A stretch of DNA of 64,000 nt. Origin: Phytophthora quininea. Lineage: Eukaryota; Oomycota; Peronosporomycetes; Peronosporales; Peronosporaceae. Position 1 is the first letter of the stretch. The number at the start of each line of letters is the position of its first letter. Below, piece by piece: positions 9,870 to 62,709 of the stretch. The notes beneath the pieces are model-generated. The model worked only from the letters and a program-made list of their open reading frames with translations. It was not told the origin of the DNA and did not search any database. Location of the stretch: contig JAAVTG010000649.1 of assembly GCA_011947345.1 (NCBI GenBank), positions 62,001 to 126,000 of the forward strand, written 5' to 3'. A program made the position numbers and the translations under genes.

Positions 9870-9948
9870 AAAATGGTTAAAAGCGAAGCAAGTGCTGAGG
9901 TCTATGTTCAGAGTCCAACTGGTTTCTACTGCTCTTCGGGTCGTTGCG

Positions 9949-12641
9949 CTACGGGGGCGGGAAGACCACTACGGGGAAGTGCGGGTGGATGGAAAAGTCA
10001 AAGTCCACCTTCGCCTTGACGTCGTTTGTCACCTTTGACTTCTTGGTCTTGTTGCTTGGGTTTTGACTGCGCTGTGCCAGACGAACGCAATTGGAGATGG
10101 CCACCTTGAGCAGCGACGCGATCTCGCCGCCGCGGATACGAGCACTGGCGCCGTCGCACGCTATGATGCTGTTGATGCCGTCTTCGTCGGTCAACAACGC
10201 CTCGGCGTGCGATCGAGCCACCTTGAAACACTCCTCTGCAGACTTGTAGATGAGCTCCAACTCATACGGAGAGAAGTCGCTGTTCTGGGTAAAATCCTCG
10301 TAGGTGAGTGCAGCTGGGTAGTGGAGCTTCTGGAACGGAGCGAACCGGTGCTGGAAGCGAATCGTGAACGAGCTGTACGTTGGCGGCTTGACTTGCATAA
10401 GACCCTCGCGCTCTAACGCACTGGACAACTGAAAGTAGGCGCGCATCAGGCTGCGCAGCATCTCCGTGTACTGGATCTCCCGAAGGAAGCGAGCTTTGGT
10501 GGGGTCGACGGGCTCTTGCGACTCGGTTGTGTCAGTGTTTGCAACAACCCCATTGCTTTGTTTCTTGTGCTTGGCCTTGGATTTCTTTGATGTCTTGGAT
10601 GACGATGCATCTGCTGGGTCCGCACTCTCGTCCTTGGATTCTTCTGCTTCGTGGCGGTGCGCACCAGGCATAATTTGCTGCATCTTCTCCACAAAGGTCC
10701 ACGAGACGTTGAGGTTTTGGAGACGCGAACCTTGCAAGTAATCCAAATACCTGAATCAAACACACAGTTAGATATATACTCCAAGATCAGACATATCTTG
10801 CACGACGCCGCCTACCAGTAAATCGTTCCAAATTCCGACGTCGAATACAGACCCATCTCAAGCCCAAGCACAACGTATTGAATCATCAGCTGAACAGATT
10901 CCTCTAGCGACCAAGCCGTGAAGTATCGAGGATATGCAGCTTTCTGTAGTGAATGAAATCGTTAGCATTTGATACCACACTGCCGCCAAACTCTAGCAAA
11001 GGAGACGCACCGGAATATTCATCTCAGTAGTAAACTTCTCGTCCACAGTCATGGCATCCACCTGAAGGATGGTCCATTCGTCCAATAAATATTCGATCCG
11101 TGCGCGCTGGCGGGAACGGTTGTGCAGATACACCTTGAGTGACTCGTACACCGTTTCAATGGACCTGGACGAGTAGAGCACGCCCTCTTGTGTGGACAGC
11201 AGTACGGAGGGCACGCCATTCATCACCATTGAGGCCGACAGCCAGTCCATAAAGTTGTATCTGGCGTAGATTTTCTTGTCAGCGTACAGGAAAAGCTAAA
11301 ACATTTACGTAAGTTAGTAAGATAAAACGTCATGTACTGCGGGTAGCCAAGCATCTTACCAATACATAAGAGCGCGCGACAATCGCAGGTTGTTGCCTTG
11401 AAAACTCAATTAAGAAGGTGCGCAAGTCTTCCATGCATGTCAACTCGGCAGGCGAGCATGCAACGACCTGTTCTTCCAACACATTTTTCATCTGCAATAG
11501 CGCCTCATCCATCGTGGGCACCTTGACGTCTCGTGGTGGTGATCCAGAAAGAAGCAGGCGGCTGATGCTCGGATCAAAGCCAAACGATTTCCCGGTGAAA
11601 CACTCAGGATCCAGTTCCAGACGTTCAGTAGAAAGCCCTTGAACAAGCTTCAGAGCACCCTGGAAACCCTTTCTTGCCTGTGGCAAATCCAACTCTCCGT
11701 CTGCCAAGCCTAGACTGGCATACGTTGAAAGTAGCTCTCTCCGCAGCTCAATCCGACGAATAAACGCTTCGCACAGCATACCGCCGACCTTGGCGTTCGC
11801 GTAAATAGGCTCGTATGTAGCCGTAGTCGAGTTTTCACTTTCGCCAGTATTTGCAGGTTTCTTTCCCTTCTTCTTTGACAGTTTCTTGGAAGACGCCACT
11901 GTCTTGATCACCTCCAGTCGCTCCTGAGCCACCTGAAGCATTACATCCACAGCATCGAGGGAGAGTGGGTCTAAAATGCCAAGATCAAAGCCATTGCCCG
12001 GCGAGAAATCCTCTTCCTCGTAGATATCGGCACGAAGTATAGCATCCCGTACAACACCCGCAGTTTTGACTGTAGACAGAAACATTGCACATGTGACAAG
12101 CCGCAGGGTGTCTTTCATTGACTTGCCCACATTCTCGGCCAGCACCGCACGCACGTCTGCCTGTTGGTCGATCAAAGCCTCCAACGGAGTGACAAGTTGA
12201 GCCGCCAGAGCGTTAAGTGGATCTCTGTGCATGTAGACGCTCGTAAGCAGCGACTGCGCCAGTGGTAATCCATTGAGCCACCCCGCCTCGAAACGGAAGA
12301 GGTCATCCAGCGTAGCGAGTACATCTCTGGCCGATGAGAATTCCAACGGCACTTGGCCAGCTTCCATTCTCGCCAAGATCGTCAGCGGGGAAACCGTTCA
12401 CCAGCATCCCCGAGTCCATCTTAGGGTCCATCAGCTCCAGCGCCGACATAGAGTCGAACAGCTTAAAGTCGTCTTCGTGCACCAGTTGTCCCACCTTGAG
12501 CTCCTTCGCTGCTGCTGCCATCAACTATGCATTGCGGTTAGTGTTGCCCACACTAGTGGTCGAGTCGAGGCGACGCACCTCAGTCACATCTCGCCACTCG
12601 GCCTGGAACGGCGAGCGCTGTATCGAGAGTTTCGTCTCCAT
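9949..12641 (-). CDS. NAA35: NatC N-terminal acetyltransferase auxiliary subunit NAA35/Mak10
   Basis: Multi-exon gene. Exon 1 from METKLSIQRSPFQAEWRDVTE (ATG at 12641) splices (GTGCGT...CATAG) to LMAAAAKELKVGQL, then the Mak10 signature HEDDFKLFDSMSALELMDPK (N-terminal family hallmark). The main exon runs to about 11345. Further exons hold IEYLLDEWTILQVDAMTVDE, then YVVLGLEMGLYSTSEFGTIYW, then the long C-terminal exon (10750-9949) with a Lys-rich low-complexity insert (SSSKTSKKSKAKHKK) and RFQHRFAPFQKLHYPAALTY. The total is about 750 codons, close to animal NAA35. The protein is a scaffold for NatC, which acetylates N-terminal Met followed by hydrophobic residues on ribosomes. An upstream open piece (12834-12727, ending EVQRQLLTS) splices in frame to EGEELHETMETK, so the true N-terminus may lie further upstream. 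Confidence 0.9.
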
Positions 12642-19886: not shown

Positions 19887-22691
19887 CTATCTCACCTCCA
19901 CCACGACGGATCGAGACGAAACCGAGATCAGCAGCGTCACATTTGCTGGCATCATCACAGCCTGAGACTTGGCCGTGTGCGGCGCCAGCACCATATCGGC
20001 AGACTTCAAACAGTATACGTTACTCCAACACACCGGCCGTTTACGCTCAGCTATCCAAGTATTATTATTCTTGATCGCCGTTGGATTCCTGTTGATCCCT
20101 TTTTCGCTTGCCGGAACTGAAACGAACACGTTTAGCGCCAGGGGAAGTTGGGTCCCATTTTTCCAACGATCGTGCCATATTTGAGCACAGGTCAGAGTGT
20201 TGCCTTCTTCAATTCGTCGCACTTTGTTGCACAACGCTACCCTGCCACCCCATTCGTTGCTGCATGTGGGGCACACGTACGTGGTGACCTTTACTCCTTT
20301 CTTCTTCTGCATCATCTTGTGAATGATAAAGCCGTTAGTTATGGCCATGTCAACTAACCCCAGGAACAGTTACTTGTAATACTTCCTCAATGCGACCGTC
20401 TTCTGTAGAGAGTAACGTTGAAGCCGGATCTGATCATGCACGTCTACCCCACCCATTCCTGAGAGGTAGTCTTTTACGAGGGTTGGGCATTGAACGACTA
20501 ATCTGCTGCCGTTCTTCTCGGTGCGAAGCACGGAGGTTGTCTGAGTGCTGCATCCAGTTGCAAGCATATTTACTGGGCGAGAATCCATCCAAGACAGTGC
20601 GACGAGTTCGGGATAGTCAACGCAACGAGCGATACGGTATGTGCCCCTCGGTATATTTTTCGGCCGCTTCTTTTGTGTGAATTGGATCGGTTAGCACCAG
20701 CCCAACCGATTGGTGCGTACTGCTCCAACGTGATACAGCCCCATGGACAAGAGCTTGATAGAGAGCAACTGAGGAGTAATAGTTGTCCGTAATGATGAGC
20801 CGCTTGCCCTCCTGGCCATTCAGCACTTTCGATATAATGCGAACAACCGCAGTCGGTCCAACATTCCCTTTGGGCACCTGCTCCTTACCACAGTACACTT
20901 CAAATCTGCACACATAATACGTAGAGCGTGTCAGTCACAATGAGTTTCTGAAAAAGCACAGGATTGGTTTACTTTCCTCGCACAATACGCCGTAGAAGAG
21001 CAGCAGGTCGAATAAAATTTAGTACCCCATTTGCTAGGCTTGTCCTAGTTGTAGACTTTCAGTGGGTTAAACTTGCTCTTGTTGGGGACCATGCCTTCGT
21101 CAAACGAAATCCCAGGTCCAAGGCGGAACCCACGGCGAAAGGTAGTCTCAATGGCTTGTAGAACTGGCCGTATCTTCCAGGCTTTATCATGAAGTGCACC
21201 GGGGCTTTCGTTGTCGTAAAAGTGAATAAAGCGAATAATTTCTTCGTAACGTGCACGCTTCATATAGCGTCCCCATGTCCCTCGAGTCCCTCAAGGCACA
21301 GCTCCGTCTTCTGTAGTTGACCAGTGCTTTGCCACACCGTCCCGCATCGGACAAAGCGAGCGGGCAATTAGCAGACCGATCACATGAACCAATTTGTGGG
21401 GCCGAACTTTATCGTAGCGCCAGAAACCCGCTTCAATATCAGCTGATGTGGACACGCTCACGCTAGGACCACGCTGCTGTGCATTCAGCAAATTATTTCG
21501 TTTTTCTTCGGCCAGTACTGGGATCGATTGTCTCCGATATCGATTCGTCTCATCCGCAATCCTTACCCAAAGTGCCTTTGGAAGAAAGTAGAAAAACAAT
21601 CCGAGCGGTGAGTCTCCAAAAGCGGCCGCAGACATCGTTGACCCCCAAGGGCCTGCGTAGCAGTCGGCTGGAGCTTTGAGCCTCAGTTGATCTGCAAATA
21701 ATAATACAACAAGTGTTACATTATCAAGTGAGCAAACCAAACCAAAAGCGAGGGAAGTTCTTTCCTGAATGCTGCTCATCGTAGATCTCCCAACCTTCAG
21801 CCGCAATGTTGCGGAGTGCATCATCGGGGACGTCAAAGGTAATGTCCGCGTTGTCATCCTCGCTATCGCTCGAATCTACGTCATTGACATAGCACATTGG
21901 TTCCGGATATTCCATTTCCTCGTCCGAGCACTCGCCAGTCACCTCCTCGGATCCGTAGCCGCAATCGAAATCCTCAGGGCACAAATTGATATCATCATCG
22001 TTGACGGGATGAAAGAGTTTTGGGTTCGCATGGCTTCCAAAAAGTTGTGGTGGTCAAATTCTGATAGTGAGTCATCAAGAAGCTCCTCGTCGTCATTGCC
22101 TTCATTTCTTCGAGCAGCTGCAGGCAATGTTGTGCTGTTGACGGTGCTTGTGGCAGTAACATTCGCTGCTGCTGCATCCAAGTATGCCATGAGCTCCTCC
22201 TCCCTATACCAGCGGGAACATTTTCAATGAGTAGTGAATAAGCTATAATGAAACAATAGTTTCGTACCTTCAAAATAATCGACGCCGAGAGTGAGTTGCG
22301 ATAGCCGGCCGCTTTTTCCAGGTACCACAAACACGGACTTCAACCATGGAGGTGCTGGTTTTCTTCTCTTCCATCCATCACGCGGCAATTTCCTCCACAC
22401 ATCTCCACTTAGCCCAGCGTTATTCATCGCGGTTGCATGCGTTTGCGCTGACAACGCATTCTCCATCGATCCTCCAAGTACGGACGACGCCGCGCTCCCC
22501 GCGTGCGCGCAGCCAGCATCTTTCCAATATTCGATGTTCTTTTTTCGCGTGTACGCTGTTAGTTTGGGTACCTTGCGTACTTCTTGTAGCCAGTCTAGCT
22601 GTAGGCGGCGCAGCGCCCTCGTTGGACGTCGCTGCTGTAACCGCGCCACTTCTTGCTGTCGGTGTGGCTGCTGCGCCGGTATGTCGTGCAC
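19887..22691 (-). pseudogene. PiggyBac transposase (DDE_Tnp_1_7), broken
   Basis: The N-terminal region at 22450-22230 reads GDVWRKLPRDGWKRRKPAPP and SQLTLGVDYFEG, a pattern common at the start of oomycete piggyBac proteins. After an intron-like gap comes an acidic stretch (EGNDDEELLDDSLSEFDH and DVDSSDSEDDNADITFDV). The catalytic core is spread over frames at 21857-21291 (KVRPHKLVHVIGLLIARSL), 21263-21045 (RYEEIIRFIHFYDN, then LGPGISFDEGMVPNKSKF), 20913-20617 (KRLIITDNYYSSVALYQALV) and 20588-20370 (LSGMGGVDVHDQIRLQRYSL). The C-terminal Cys-rich piece is at 20348 onward (TTYVCPTCSNEWGGRVALC then LTCAQIWHDRW). The expected Asp residues in SFDEGM, TDNYYS and GGVDVHD survive. Several frameshifts and stops make this copy non-functional as read. 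Confidence 0.85.
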
Positions 22692-22916: not shown

Positions 22917-23155
22917 AACCACGCTATGTTTAAATAAAATACTATCGAATCAGCCAATAGCAAGGCGTGAAAATGAGTTTCTTGTCATAGCGGCACGAGT
23001 TCATGTTGGATCGATGGACGGGCAACGTGAATGTTGTTCTGTAACCATAACACTAATACGCGCCTATTATCATGTGCTTAAAACCTTTAGCGGAGCTTCT
23101 TTTTGAGTCTGCCAATAAAGGGCAGAAGTCTTTACTTGACTTGCGAACCCGTTGT
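22917..23155. other. Spacer between the two piggyBac elements
   Basis: About 240 bp of host or older sequence separating the TTAA at 22913-22916 from the TTAA at 23156-23159. No coding feature seen. Confidence 0.6.
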
Positions 23156-23319
23156 TAACCCTTTCCCGAACGCTGCAGCTACGCCTGTATTAACTATAGT
23201 ATATAAAGAAACATTAAATCTTTCGAAAGGGCGCAAAAATCGCCTTTTAAGGCCACAGTATAAAAAGGGACTACCTTCACATCTGCCAAGATTCAGCTGG
23301 TGATATTGAGAAGTGCCCT

Positions 23320-23342
23320 AAAAGGACGCATTTCGTCCTTTT
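23320..23342. repeat. Subterminal hairpin, left end of piggyBac 2
   Basis: Perfect 9-bp stem AAAAGGACG / CGTCCTTTT with a 5-nt loop. A related hairpin (AAAGGGCG...CGCCTTTT) lies at about 23228-23252. Similar ones are near the right end at 29491-29516 and 29554-29577. Confidence 0.85.
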
Positions 23343-23659
23343 AAATAGCTCGCTGATTGGTCGAATTTGTGCGCACAGAATTTCGTGGAGGCCCGACAGC
23401 GATGATTGCACAAAACAAAGCAGAACATTGTACCGCAATCGTAACTTACCAGGTAAAATACACTGGAAAATAACTGCGCGATCCCACAGGTATGCGCGCT
23501 TACCTGCTGCTGATCAAGAGGTAAGCGTCCAAGACGAGAATCTGCTCCAGGTCTCGCTCAATGATCGACTTTTCAGTCGTCATTCTACAGCTATTCTCTC
23601 AATCATCACGAGGTGATGTCAACCGTCGTGCAGTTGCTGGGCAACGACTTGGTGACGGA

Positions 23660-23702
23660 CGCTCAACGTTGTCGACACACTGCTCAACGTTGTCGATGCA
23701 TC
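23660..23702. repeat. Short direct repeat
   Basis: GCTCAACGTTGTCGA occurs twice about 22 bp apart, with a third weaker AACGTT-like word nearby. It lies in the non-coding left arm of piggyBac element 2. Confidence 0.7.
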
Positions 23703-24054
23703 GCCCACGTTAAACATGTCAGCGTTGGGGATAGTTCAAGCCAACAATTTACGCGGACGAGAACCTGTTCAAGACGCCGCGATGGCTGAACCACCACCTC
23801 CAGTGAATGCAGGATAGTCCTTTGTCACCTTCACCAAACCTGTGACATCGTCACATTCTCCATGACCACCAGAAGAGCCTGGGATGAACACATTACGCTC
23901 GTAGGCGTCTAAGATTAATCGCGATGTTTCGCACCGCTTGGAGTGGATGCTCCAGGCGTTGCTGGAGGCAGGTACTTCATCGCTCGGGTGCTATTTAATG
24001 CATCTATTTGCATTTTTGTATGCTGCGTGCGTGCGACTTGGATGTAGTATGAAC

Positions 24055-24082
24055 ATTGGGCGCGAAAATGTTCGCGCCCAAT
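24055..24082. promoter_or_regulatory. 12-bp hairpin upstream of a TATA-like box
   Basis: Perfect stem ATTGGGCGCGAA / TTCGCGCCCAAT with loop AATG. About 25 bp further on is CTCTATAAATAG (24102-24113), a good TATA-like box 190 bp upstream of the first transposase exon. Likely part of the transposase promoter; inference from position only. Confidence 0.55.
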
Positions 24083-24301
24083 TTCTGAGACACTCACGTA
24101 TACTCTCTATAAATAGATACCCCTCCGTATCGCTTTCGTAATGACATGATAAAAGACGCAAAATTTACCTGCGATAAAGCATAATACATCAAAGGTCTTC
24201 CACCCCTCCCCCTCACAACCATAGAAGCCAGAAAAGTGAACGCTGTGCTTCTGGAGTTGCCAGACTGACTGTAATGAAGCCCGCAAGGTAATGCCGACCG
24301 C

Positions 24302-27300
24302 TTGGGGCATGAAGAGAGCGCTGTTGATAACAAGGCACGCGAGTTAGGGGGATCGGAAGTGTTCAAGCTAGCGTGGAAGAAGCTGTTACGTGAGGGTTGG
24401 CACTCAAAACCACCGCCCCGACGAAGCCTAGACAATCTCTATCGGTACGTTCGGCCTGGACACAACGCCAACGGTCAAGAAGGGGTTGACTACTTGCTGG
24501 GAGAGACAGCAGTGTTGCAGTTTATCGCTAAAGGTACATCATCTAATGTCGTCTAGTTTCCTACGTCAAACTAACGCTGTGTATATGCATTTTTGCAGAT
24601 TGTCAGTTTGATGGGGAGGGCAATGACGTGCACGAGAATAATGCCGTGGACGGAGTGCCTGCTGGCCGCGATGTTATAACTTGTACCCGTGAAGACACCT
24701 CGACTACAGGTAAGCCGTCCTAGTTGATTGTGAAAACTTCATATGAGTGACGCTTGTGTGAATTTAAAACCTCGATGTCAACTTGGGCTCAGCGGTCGCA
24801 GTGCATGGAACCTCTTCACGAAATGCTGCTGCCAGTAAACTCATGGCGGCTACGGGTGGGGTCTGCGTTTTAGATGACAGTGACAGCAGCATCACGAGTG
24901 CGGCGTCAGCCTTGAGTACGGCGAATAGTGGCCGTGGATCACGGATCGTCGATACGGCAGGTATGCCAAAAGTGAGTGACACGTCATCCTCACCCGCTGA
25001 TACTTCGTTGGTTGGTGTAGACAAAGCTGTGCAGGACAGCGCAAGTATGTCCGGCGTGACGTTGAGCGGTCGCGTGGTATCTAGTGGTGATTGTGGACAT
25101 GTGGACCACCGCGGTGATGGTGATAACTGCGGTGAAGCCTGTAGTGATCAACATGACGCTGACCTTGGTGATGACCGTGATGATGACACTGGTGATAACC
25201 GAGGTGGTGGGCATGGTGTGTGCCGTGGCAGTGGTGGGGCCCGCGGTAGTACCCGTGGTGGAGCCCGCGGTCGTGGACGTGGTCGTAGACGCGGTGGTGG
25301 GAATGCCGCAGATTCTCCTAATGTCATTCAGTACAGACCGGGTATGTTGATGCTTGAAGCGTTAGAATTGTTCACTCATGTTGACACTGTTTTCTGAGTG
25401 TTATGATTTTTCAGGCAGTGGGCTCGGCGAAACAACCAATGAACGAATCAATGATCTCTTTCACGTCGAAGATACGATAGCTACGCCGACCCGTGCAAAC
25501 GTAATGGCAACATCAACACCTAGCAGCACAGCTCGTGCTTCAGAGTCAGCTGGATCTGCAAGAGCATCACGTCCGCCACCCGTCCTTCTTCAAGACATTT
25601 ATTTGGAGCAGCTTGTAGCGTTCACTCCCGACAAAGAATCGTGGATGAAGGCGAAGACGTACCGGCCAATTGGAACTGCATATATCGTAGGTCGAGTCTG
25701 TCGACGGGTGAAGAGAAAGTTTGCATCTCTTTTGAGATCCGCTGGATAGATTGTCAATTTCAAGCTACGGTCGAATATCTGAACGTTGGCACTATCCAGC
25801 GTGGCATCGAGAACTACGGCGCATTTACTAGATTGAAGGACAACCCCGACTGGCAGGTCCTCACCAAAGCTGGTGAAAGTGGTGAAATCGAGATGGGCAA
25901 TGACTCTGACATGAGTGAAACGGAGGCATACGAAGAGTACGATCCCGAGCAATTGATCCAACGAGTCTAGAAGAAATTGAAGCGATTCAGAACATGCGTT
26001 TTGAACCAACTGGTCAAGTCGAAGCACCCATGGACTTGTTCCAGCGTGCTGACGGATCGTCAGAAACACTCCTGCGTCCAGAGTACAAGCATATATTTAC
26101 GAACTCTGCCAGCTCCAGCTTCTTTGCCTATCTACCCGTTTATTTCTGGCGTCAACTCGTTCACGAGACCAACAAATACGCGGTCGCCAAGGCAATCCGC
26201 CTTACAACCCCTTCACACTGGCTGAACTTATGACGTTTGTTGGCATCATGTTCTTCATGGCATTGACGGACAAAGGCGAGTATGCCAATTACTGGGGACC
26301 TCAGCCTAACGACATAATTTTTGGTGGCAGTACGACTTCGTTGGAGGAGACAATGCCTTTACGACGTTACAAATTGCTTCGTCATTGCCTCAGCTTCAAC
26401 ACAACGGCATCAACGCTTGAGCAGGGTGCAGCAGCACGTATCCGGTCTCTTCTAAATATGCTAAAGATTACTGCTGGGCGTTCTATCGATGTCGGTCGAA
26501 ACGTGGCACTGGACGAAGCTAGCGTGGCTTGTAGGTCCCGAAAAGGACGCCATCTCATCGTCTACAACCCTATGAAACCAACAGGGAAGTACCATTTCCG
26601 CCTCTACATGGTTTGCTGTTCTACTACATGGATCGCGCTCAATTACAGACTGAACTGTAATAAAAGTGATCTCGGTGACCGCCTTTACGGCGTTGTTGGC
26701 CATCAGGAGGCCCTGTTACTTCGCGTGGAGCTGGACAAAGTATCTAAGATACGTCAGCATGTTTTGGAGGTGACGCGACCATTATTTGGGTCGCACAGGA
26801 TTGTCAACATGGACAACTATTACATATCAGTACAATTACTTCAAGAACTTCGGCTAAGAGGTCTGTACGGTCGCGGCACAATTCGATCAAACAGCAAGCA
26901 TTTTCCTGCGCATACAATCCTCGACAGAGACGATAGCGTTCGGGGTGAACATTGACTAGCCGTTTCTCGCGACCACAGCATAATTGCTGCGTCATGGTGC
27001 GATGGCAGCATTGTAAACATGGTTTCTAGTTTGATGCATCTACATCGACTACCGTATCCCGTTTGACTGGAGGTGAAAATCGAGCATTTCCCGCGCCAGT
27101 TTGTATTGCAGAATACAACACTAATATGCAAGGTGTGGACAGACTGGATCAGATCCGAGGGAGGTTTTCGCTGGCGGACGGTCACTCCTACAAGAGATGG
27201 CATAAAAACTTGCGTTAGCGCTGATTGACATTGCAAGATCGAACGCGTACTTGACCCGCCGGTTGGCCATGCCAGAAACTCGAGAACGAGATCCCCATCG

Positions 27301-27872
27301 CGCGTTTATGACTCAGTTGGTTGGAGAATTTATTAGTGGGGATTGAATCAAAGCACCGAGTGAAGGACACATGATGTACGGAGCAACTATGGGAGAGAGT
27401 TGCGTCCAGGATAGCACAAATGACGCACCTACAGCACCGACGCCAACACGTCATGCTGAAAGCCCTACAACGCAGTGTGGATCCGTCTCCTCGAAACAAC
27501 TATTTGCTGATGGCAGTAGGAAGAGACGCCGCTGCATCGTGTGCCGTTGGGAAGGTCGATATCCTACGGAGGTAACAAATTATTGCCTTACGCGCAACGT
27601 GTGCCTTTGCACCATCGTCCACCCCCAGCATCCCCAGCCTTGGATGTGCCCGAACACCACGTGGACCTGCTGGGAGAAGCACCATCGATATTACTTGCCA
27701 AGCCAACTATTTACTCACAAGGGAAACGTTAAACGGGGATCTAGCTTAGCTAAGTTGCGCCAGGCTGAGCGTGCGCAAGATCAAGAGGAAACAGTCAGTA
27801 CCGAGACTGATCACGTGGATAACGACGCGCAGGGTCCATCTAAACCTCCAGTTGTGCGTCAAATCGTCGTAT
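24302..27872 (+). pseudogene. PiggyBac transposase of element 2, multi-exon, frame-broken
   Basis: Exon 1 (24302-24536) has LGGSEVFKLAWKKLLREGWH and EGVDYLLGETAVLQFIAKG, the same N-terminal pattern as element 1. Small exons follow (24600-24710), then an exon with a Ser/Thr-rich region and a Gly/Arg-rich tract (GGARGSTRGGARGRGRGRRR, about 25220-25300). Next come NVGTIQRGIENYGAFTRLKD, then an acidic stretch, then the catalytic region: SSSFFAYLPVYFWRQLVHET, then MTFVGIMFFMALTDKGEYAN, NVALDEASVACRSRKGRH, YNPMKPTGKYHFRLYMVCCS, HRIVNMDNYYISVQLLQELR, MQGVDRLDQIRGRFSLADG. The C-terminal zinc-binding tail (27513-27690: RRRCIVCRWEG, then NVCLCTIVHP and PWMCPNTTWTC) ends at 27872. The catalytic Asp positions (LDEAS, NMDNYY, GVDRLD) are present. 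Breaks near 25640, 25970, 26955 and 27220 may be partly introns or base-call errors. Confidence 0.85.
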
Positions 27873-28125
27873 AATCAACTCTGAGCGTTGTTGGGAGTAC
27901 GTACTATCGGGAATTGGAGCTTCTGCACAATGTATCTGTAACTATGCCGGTCACGCTAATATCGAACGATGGCCACAACAGTGGCGACTCTACCTCTGTA
28001 TCGGTGCTTCACGGCGCTTCTGGTCGCTGTTCTGCTGGTTGCGAAGATGTCGACGATGTTGCTGTGATAAATCAAAGAATACAGGTGATGCGAGAATGTG
28101 CTGGTAACAGAGTTTCCTGCTGCAG

Positions 28126-29245
28126 CTAGAATAACTTTTTGTATATGTATAGAGGCGTCAAAGATGGCTTCCAACTGCATGCTACCTTTATCTGTTGCGC
28201 GAGCTTCCATTGCGCGCAAAATGGCTGTGAGCATCTTGCTTGATGTCTTGGGCAGAAGAGGGAGCTCGCCGCTACAATTCTCGCCTTGGGCATGGCGCTG
28301 AGTTCACACGCGACGACTAGTTTTGCTTCTTCCTCAAACAGAAAATTATTCGTAAAAATTATCGTAGCTTCCCGCGTTGGAGATCGAGCAGATAAAAGCG
28401 CGTCGCGAACGTCCGTAGCCACCATCGTAATCTTGCGAAGAAGAGGATAATTCCGTGTATGCCGTTAAATGTGCTGAACCCCAGAGAGCACAGTTCCTCC
28501 CGAGCTTCCACGCTAACATACGCACCGACACTAGTTGTTAGAGCCACCTGGACAAGCACATTGCCGATACCGGCACCAACGTCTAGAAAAACGTCCGTGG
28601 AATCCACCTGACCAATTGCTTCAATCAGGACAGCCACACCACTTGGGAGCACCTCACCAGCGTCACCACAGGTCCGCCCAGCTTGCTGACGCACGTCGCC
28701 GGCGCTGACGCCACCAAAAACGGAAGCAATAGCTTGCGTTGCTTCGTATTTTGAAAGCAAACTGACGGACATCGTTGCTGTAGCATCCATGGCCTGTTCC
28801 CAAACAGGTACAATGTTTGGTCCAGTCGGCGACCTTGCGCGTTGACTTGACGCAGTGATGTCAACGTCGGGTTGCGAGGATGATGGAGTTGCGTTCTTGA
28901 GCGCGTAGCGGTGGCATTGTTGGTTCGTTTCAGAGCGCAGCAGCGGTCGAACTGTTGCTGGGACTGATGGTCGGCGGGCGGGCGGGGGCGGGCTGGTGGG
29001 AAACCTGACGGAAACAGCGACCTACGCTGCATGCCATTGAAAAAGCAATGAGGAAAGCGCGCGATAGTTTTACCGTAGGTCCTCTTGAGACTAACCAGAC
29101 GCATCTGTAGCTGTCGGGTTGTGTGTGTTGTCCTTGGCATTTGCCTCTTGACGTAGTCCCATGCTATACAAATCCCTTCTTGCTCAAACAGGAGGGCAAT
29201 CTGGACGAGCTGTTTGTCTTCCCAGTCCTGGAAGTTTGTGCGCAT
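28126..29245 (-). CDS. SANT plus DOT1-like methyltransferase (piggyBac 2 cargo)
   Basis: Starts MRTNFQDWEDKQLVQIALLF (ATG 29245), a SANT/Myb-like N-terminal domain of about 65 residues ending SLKRTYGKTIARFPHCFF. A low-complexity linker crosses a GC-rich run near 28985, where the frame changes. It then continues SQRARSPTGPNIVPVWEQAM, LLSKYEATQAIASVFGGVSA, and the SAM-binding motif VFLDVGAGIGNVLVQVAL (28600-28540), the D-x-G-x-G-x-G pattern of DOT1-family enzymes. After a second frame change near 28430 come TDVRDALLSARSP, the family's Asn-Asn-Phe motif ATIIFTNNFLFEEEAK, and the end PLYIYKKLF. DOT1 enzymes methylate histone H3 Lys79 in the nucleosome core; that activity is inferred from family only. 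About 370 codons. All key motifs are present. The two frame breaks may be base-call errors, so the gene could be intact. Confidence 0.75.
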
Positions 29246-29963
29246 GATGCAAGCATCTAGCTTTTTGTATACTGTTGGCCTGTGATGCATTTATTTTCAT
29301 TTTTGTATGACAGGAATGGTTGGAAGAAATTCGCAGTAGTGATGCCGGTGATGTGGCGGCGAAGTTTACAGCGAAGTGGTATTTTTTTAGGTGGGTTGGT
29401 TGGAAGTATAAGTGTTCGCGCGAGAAAATTATGCGGTGTGGTGATCTGATTGGTAGAAAAGCAAAGTGTACGAAGTTGGACTCAAAATATAAAAGGGCGA
29501 AAAAGTCGCCATTTTAAGGGAGTCTTTTCAACCTAGTTTTGGAAACGGTATTAAAAGGCGAGAATTGCGCCCTTTGACCGCGAAAGGGTTAAATGTTCAA
29601 ATTCCAAATTTACTTTTGTAGTATTTTTTTCTAGAGCAGGCTCCAGCGCATGCCGAAGTGTGCTATACTGGGAATATCTCAAAATGAGGGAAAACGAACG
29701 TATCCTAAGCGCCGATGACTGATACGCTCTCCCATTGGCTAAAATTGACCTGTTGGGCATCATTATTTCAGTTCGAGAAGCGTCGCAGACACGAAAGAGC
29801 GCTCACACTTCACGGGCGCTTCATATCAAGAAAGATGGGTATTCAAGGAAGTGCTACTCGAGGTAGGTCTTCTGCTTGAATGTTTAAGTTAGCTGTTCGT
29901 GCAGCGCTATATAACCATTTATTGGAATGCTGTGGGGGCTCTCTTCAGACCTGTCCAGTTAAT

Positions 29964-58314: not shown

Positions 58315-62709
<4,395 letters not shown>

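Follow-up and report, generated by a model that had tools for sequence, protein, structure and literature searches.

Histone marks are a means by which hosts silence transposons, and there are transposons whose own proteins lift this silencing. Here we describe a transposon of the oomycete Phytophthora quininea that holds, convergent with its transposase gene, a gene for a DOT1-type methyltransferase. It lies in a stretch of 64,000 nucleotides, called the window below (positions 62,001 to 126,000 of contig JAAVTG010000649.1, here C642, in assembly GCA_011947345.1). By its transposase, its ends and its target it is a piggyBac element; DOT1 cargo in such an element was not found described in the open-licence literature on DOT1, piggyBac cargo and silencing.

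With the piggyBac superfamily the element shares the DDE_Tnp_1_7 transposase profile, the TTAA target and CCCTTT ends, and it differs in that this lineage adds a conserved second gene, the DOT1-type methyltransferase gene. The product of that gene resembles DOT1/DOT1L (KMT4) in its catalytic-domain profile, its S-adenosylmethionine (SAM) motif and its NN motif, but here the gene is transposon-borne and multicopy, has a Myb/SANT-like N-terminus, and carries AGE or VGE in place of the host YGE. In its proposed role it would be comparable to VANC of the Arabidopsis VANDAL elements, an element-encoded, sequence-specific change of the element's own chromatin being at issue in both; in the available text on VANC, silent marks are lost via binding, whereas a histone-methylation enzyme is proposed here, and the likeness drawn here is one of role (PMC10398659). 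Brown algae, which are also stramenopiles, have multiplied DOT1 genes and dimethylation of histone H3 lysine 79 (H3K79me2) on transposable elements (TEs) (PMC13076208, PMC12477816), but these are reported as host gene families, and the accessible part of the account makes no link to piggyBac (PMC13076208).

The element and its two genes

A sequence-only reading of the window had proposed a TTAA-flanked element with a piggyBac transposase and a convergent DOT1-type gene, and the paired ends and the matches to PF13843 and PF08123 bear this out. Its limits, given as 23160-29588, were a few bases off; the unit runs between the TTAA copies at 23155 and 29592 (Table 1). In the transposase gene, the open reading frame (ORF) 26230-26955 matches PF13843 (DDE_Tnp_1_7) at E 5.2e-24 (85.6 bits; cut-off 22.4), and transposase profile matches cover 26194-26952, 26959-27042 and 27036-27212. 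The outer pieces were assigned by eye against the 919-residue open frame of contig C440, with which ORF 27371-27874 has in common a Cys/His cluster; it is a candidate for the cysteine-rich C-terminal domain of the superfamily, though matched by no profile.

The cargo gene is split into three frame pieces and faces the transposase gene tail to tail. ORF 28359-28790(-) reaches 31.4 bits against PF08123 (cut-off 23), the downstream ORF 28126-28425(-) with TNNFLF stays below that cut-off at 16.1 bits, and the assignment to the DOT1 fold holds. Both the SAM motif and the NNF motif that had been pointed out are present, and so are the two reported frame breaks. The first, where the SANT frame passes into the DOT1 frame in a G/C run (~28975-29009), is common to the sister copy on C129, and an assembly error in the window copy is therefore an unlikely cause; at the second (~28465), C129 is open and has a stop further on.

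The N-terminus had been called SANT/Myb-like, a label that goes back to weak matches of relatives and to three confident helices in the predicted structure model of a relative; the N-terminal ORF of the window itself has no Pfam match. When 12 N-terminal pieces were compared with Myb profiles, the best E was 6.9e-4; PF00249 matched 6 of the 12 at E up to 1 and PF13921 matched 7, with member 1 below the cut-offs. The N-terminal profile retrieved no Myb protein from the PDB sequences. An AT-hook-like RPRGRPP stretch often follows the Myb/SANT-like domain.

Table 1. Features of the element and its surroundings, in window positions
Feature	Position	Strand	Remarks
Family B piggyBac-like element	23155..29592		6438 bp, both TTAA included; C642:85155-91592; basis: paired ends, empty-site match
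Left (transposase-side) end	23155..23168	+	TTAACCCTTTCCCG
Subterminal palindrome near left end	23319..23343		TAAAAGGA-9-TCCTTTTA
piggyBac transposase gene, broken frames	25378..27874	+	ORFs 25378-25749, 25641-25970, 26230-26955, 27371-27874
Myb/SANT-like N-terminal piece, frame 1	28883..29248	-	TE-type profile positions 3-109, E 7.6e-19
DOT1 piece with SAM motif FLDVGAGIGN, frame 2	28470..29009	-	profile positions 65-248, E 2.6e-51
DOT1 piece with TNNFLF and Cys/His tail, frame 3	28132..28464	-	profile positions 251-361, E 5.4e-43
Palindrome, right end	29570..29588		CCCTTT-7-AAAGGG
Right (DOT1-side) end	29579..29592	-	TTAACCCTTTCGCG, inward reading
Second piggyBac transposase remains, broken frames	20373-21572	-	~1.6 kb from the element's left end

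Copies in the genome and movement as one unit

A search of the genome (87,245,361 bases in 993 contigs) gave 24 PF08123 matches: 17 are of the TE type, 3 belong to canonical host DOT1 and 4 to other methyltransferases. The host has its canonical DOT1 as a gene of its own, on C76 and, in two pieces, on C687, so that within this genome the DOT1 gene of the element can indeed be regarded as cargo. The matches on C230, C554, C553 and C548 were excluded from the TE type after their sequences were read. Those on C230, C554 and C553 (L007, L008 and L009) are copies of a PF08123-type methyltransferase, 98-99.9% identical over ~3.4 kb, with MNSTCFG in place of the DOT1 NNF.

The TE-type loci fall into six families: A (C407, C880, C551), B (C642, the window copy, and C129), C (two near-identical copies, C133), D (C608), E (C517, C496) and F (seven loci: two on C236, plus C828, C148, C741, C740 and C794). 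All ten loci of families A to E have a piggyBac transposase, whole or in part, nearby in convergent orientation. Family F has a transposase within ~5 kb at four loci (C740, C741, C236:54 kb, C794), convergent in C740 and C741 and on the same strand as DOT1 in C794; none was found within ~5 kb at C236:80 kb, C828 and C148, with 116 of 308 candidates scored. The C794 gene is surrounded by perfect 1.8-kb inverted repeats (L058 3172-4971 and 6883-8682, i.e. C794:6171-7970 and 9882-11681); its strand difference possibly reflects an inversion or an assembly effect. In P. megakarya, gene families for hypothetical proteins are arranged as inverted blocks associated with piggyBac-like TEs (PMC7341134). 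Family F resembles them as multicopy genes adjoining piggyBac-like TEs with inverted repeats, and the two may represent one phenomenon, the difference being that the available text on P. megakarya speaks of hypothetical proteins and names neither a methyltransferase nor a histone (PMC7341134). The TE-type profile detected two further remnants, on C691, adjoining a transposase, and on C867.

The 12-mer TTAACCCTTTCG is rare, occurring at 38 genome sites compared with 6 for a reversed control pattern, and the ends of DOT1-bearing units account for 14 of these 38. Both ends were found in seven such units (C642, C129, C608, C407, C880, C517 and C867), with inverted CCCTTT-type terminal repeats at both; the exception is C129, with TTCTTT at one end (TTAATTCTTTCG). 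The C867 unit is a remnant with both ends and DOT1 remnants, and its transposase trace, on the same strand as DOT1, is below counting strength (E 8e-4, 30 residues). In the sequence read, C133 gave the DOT1-side end alone and family F no TTAACCCTTTCG ends. Near the ends, at distances of at most a few hundred bases, there are palindromes whose type varies with the family: AAAGGGCG...CGCCCTTT in families B and D, CGGTCC...GGACCG in family A, and CGGGGTCA...TGACCCCG in family E, at one end only. Two facing TTAACCCTTTCG ends 270 bp apart (C858:74446-74715) possibly form a miniature non-autonomous element.

At other sites, too, ends of this kind enclose the two convergent genes, as would be expected of true cargo, and former insertion sites can be recognized. 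When the flanks of the window element are joined via one TTAA, they match an uninterrupted paralogous site at C642:174200 at 85%, with TTCA instead of TTAA at the join. The joined flanks of the C407 unit match C613:623571 at 97%, with the TTAA kept and a 3-base gap adjoining it, and at least 39 further places at 93-95%, in alignments that start near base 65, span the join and reach the query end. The family E element C517:83208-94549 lies inside a tRNA-Ile(UAU) gene; joining its flanks via one TTAA gives a complete gene (ARAGORN), which neither short flank alone does. This element is ~5 kb longer than the others and has unread sequence between the left end and the DOT1 gene. Because of the empty-site matches and the restored tRNA gene, the transposase and DOT1 genes must have travelled together: two convergent genes inside one TTAA-bounded unit, moved in one piece.

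Relatives and origin of the cargo

The genome has at least 125 transposase matches (116 of 308 candidates scored). In a transposase tree of 35 rows (27 of 30 fetched loci and 8 family rows, with C867 and L058 left out), the DOT1-linked transposases form a clade with L029, L031, L035 and L036 (support 99). L031 (C691:186317-186883) is the cargo remnant, adjoining a 996-codon transposase frame with one stop. L029 with L071 (C440:10232-18300) has no DOT1, and in L035 and L036 no DOT1 lies closer than 1.5 kb to the transposase match, so the members of this clade often, but not always, carry DOT1 cargo. In C440 a 919-codon open transposase frame (C440:10958-13714) has one TTAACCCTTTCGCG end adjoining.

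Protein searches yielded 22 TE-type proteins, among them proteins of nine Phytophthora species (P. fragariaefolia, P. nicotianae, P. capsici, P. sojae, P. lilii, P. palmivora, P. oleae, P. idaei and P. megakarya); each search scored ~8000 candidates sharing most words, and absence elsewhere carries little weight. In many relatives from other Phytophthora species a single predicted protein combines the N-terminal domain with DOT1. Two 508-residue TE-type proteins, P0003 of P. nicotianae (7 member sequences) and P0005 of P. capsici (5), group together in the tree and are possibly domesticated.

Host DOT1 is represented by 35 proteins from Phytophthora, downy mildews, and Pythium-like and Saprolegnia-like oomycetes. 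In a quick, unrooted DOT1 tree (20 of the 22 TE-type and 17 of the 35 host proteins, and 10 loci of the present genome), the 17 host proteins and the C76 gene are set apart from the TE-type rows by a branch with support 100; family F has a long branch and its placement is unsure. The D-x-G-x-G-x-G motif is present in 20/22 TE-type and 35/35 host proteins, and NN-(1-2)-F in 16/22 and 35/35. AGE or VGE occurs in 21/22 TE-type and 0/35 host proteins, YGE in 0/22 and 35/35, respectively. A tail motif C-x-R-H...C...C is found in all 35 host proteins, in 14 of the 22 TE-type proteins and in none of 1140 shuffled proteins; since it is common to both groups, the TE gene probably derives from an oomycete-type DOT1. 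No viral source appeared in a phage search with one window piece or in a scan of viral contigs with the TE-type alignment (49 pattern matches, 0 relatives).

With one member of each of the six families, transposase and DOT1 distances are correlated (r 0.56; 26 of 720 permutations as high), also when C691 is added (r 0.52; 145 of 5040), which gives modest support to a long shared history. The families differ at 58-79% of residues, yet the motifs are kept, and in five comparisons between families the proportion of nonsynonymous differences (pN) is 0.28-0.49, against near-saturated synonymous ones (pS 0.73-0.83).

Possible function and alternatives

The H3K79 methylation of animals and yeast mostly accompanies active chromatin and restricts silencing; this suggests an anti-silencing role for the DOT1 cargo. 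Chromatin marking by the element is plausible. In the reading we favour, the N-terminal domain would tether the enzyme to element DNA, with the family-specific subterminal palindromes as possible sites; the DOT1 domain would methylate the nucleosomes of the element on histone H3 (at K79, judging by homology), and this would keep its chromatin open to transcription and transposition despite host silencing. To the overall reading we assign a probability of roughly 0.5: the window element would be a decayed copy of an old oomycete piggyBac-like lineage, whose second gene, a host-derived DOT1 combined with a Myb/SANT-like domain, methylates the element's own chromatin against silencing. More tentative, and in our view rather doubtful, is a wider proposal in which the SANT-DOT1 of each family would recognise its own subterminal palindromes and write H3K79 methylation on its own copies, and escaped copies could have seeded extra DOT1-like genes in stramenopiles.

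Several points weigh against an element that marks its own chromatin. The SANT label is weak by sequence, and the subterminal palindromes may be transposase sites. In PIF/Harbinger elements a Myb-like second protein helps the transposase, and the cargo protein could likewise bind ends or nucleosomes as an accessory to transposition, with the DOT1 domain serving for binding or for modifying another protein. This would agree with the tail-to-tail position throughout families A-E, with the palindromes near the ends, and with the C691 remnant, which adjoins a long transposase frame and in which the N-terminal domain and the C-terminal part are present and the SAM-motif part is missing. C440, which has the longest open transposase frame of the clade, speaks in two directions: with neither DOT1 nor a second end in the 8 kb read, it counts against the proposed role, but it also manages without the supposed accessory. 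The different families and most relatives, moreover, retain the SAM and NN motifs, and this conservation suggests a need for catalysis; an accessory of this kind seems quite unlikely. The sign of the chromatin effect could also go either way, since in brown algae, as far as the available text goes, H3K79me2 accompanies lower expression and intact TEs (PMC12477816, PMC13076208). An element-borne DOT1 could thus repress the element's own copies by marking them at H3K79, limiting their activity and the damage to the host. The anatomy of the element would fit equally well, and the DOT1 genes of those algae have multiplied (PMC12477816, PMC13076208); on the other hand, a literature search found nothing on the H3K79 mark in oomycetes, and self-repression is harder to select for on an element. 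Such self-restraint is unlikely, if worth keeping in mind.

The state of the copies invites a further objection. Every copy read in this genome is broken or partial, and the ratios of nonsynonymous to synonymous change (dN/dS) within families, 0.53, 1.38 and 1.11 in A, 0.51 in B, 0.67 in E, and 0.92 and 0.45 in F, are near neutral in several pairs; one family F pair has 2 synonymous and 0 amino-acid changes. Eight pairs were computed and five of them tested; none showed significant within-family purifying selection (p 0.073 to 1.0), the window copy and C129 giving 0.51 with p = 0.073. The suggestion that the cargo was selected until recently is thus borne out in part: conservation between families is clear (D versus B: pN 0.31, pS 0.73), but there is no significant deficit of amino-acid changes within them; the latter pattern would be expected of dead copies of once-selected genes and is no proof of recent selection. 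A host DOT1 copy caught once and carried without function would leave similar debris, but a mere passenger is very improbable in view of the motifs kept among such divergent families, the low pN at near-saturated synonymous sites and the one-frame relatives in other species. That the ends, transposase and DOT1 gene are unrelated, by chance neighbourhood or assembly artefact, might be argued from the frame breaks of the window copy alone; with the layout repeated at other sites, the empty sites and the restored tRNA gene, it is scarcely credible.

If the reading of an element that methylates its own chromatin against silencing is true, the arms race between transposon and host becomes open to experiment, since the enzyme is defined and there are candidates for both the mark and the target sites. 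The lineage is, moreover, a possible transposon source for the multicopy DOT1 annotations of Phytophthora ('Histone-lysine N-methyltransferase, H3 lysine-79 specific').
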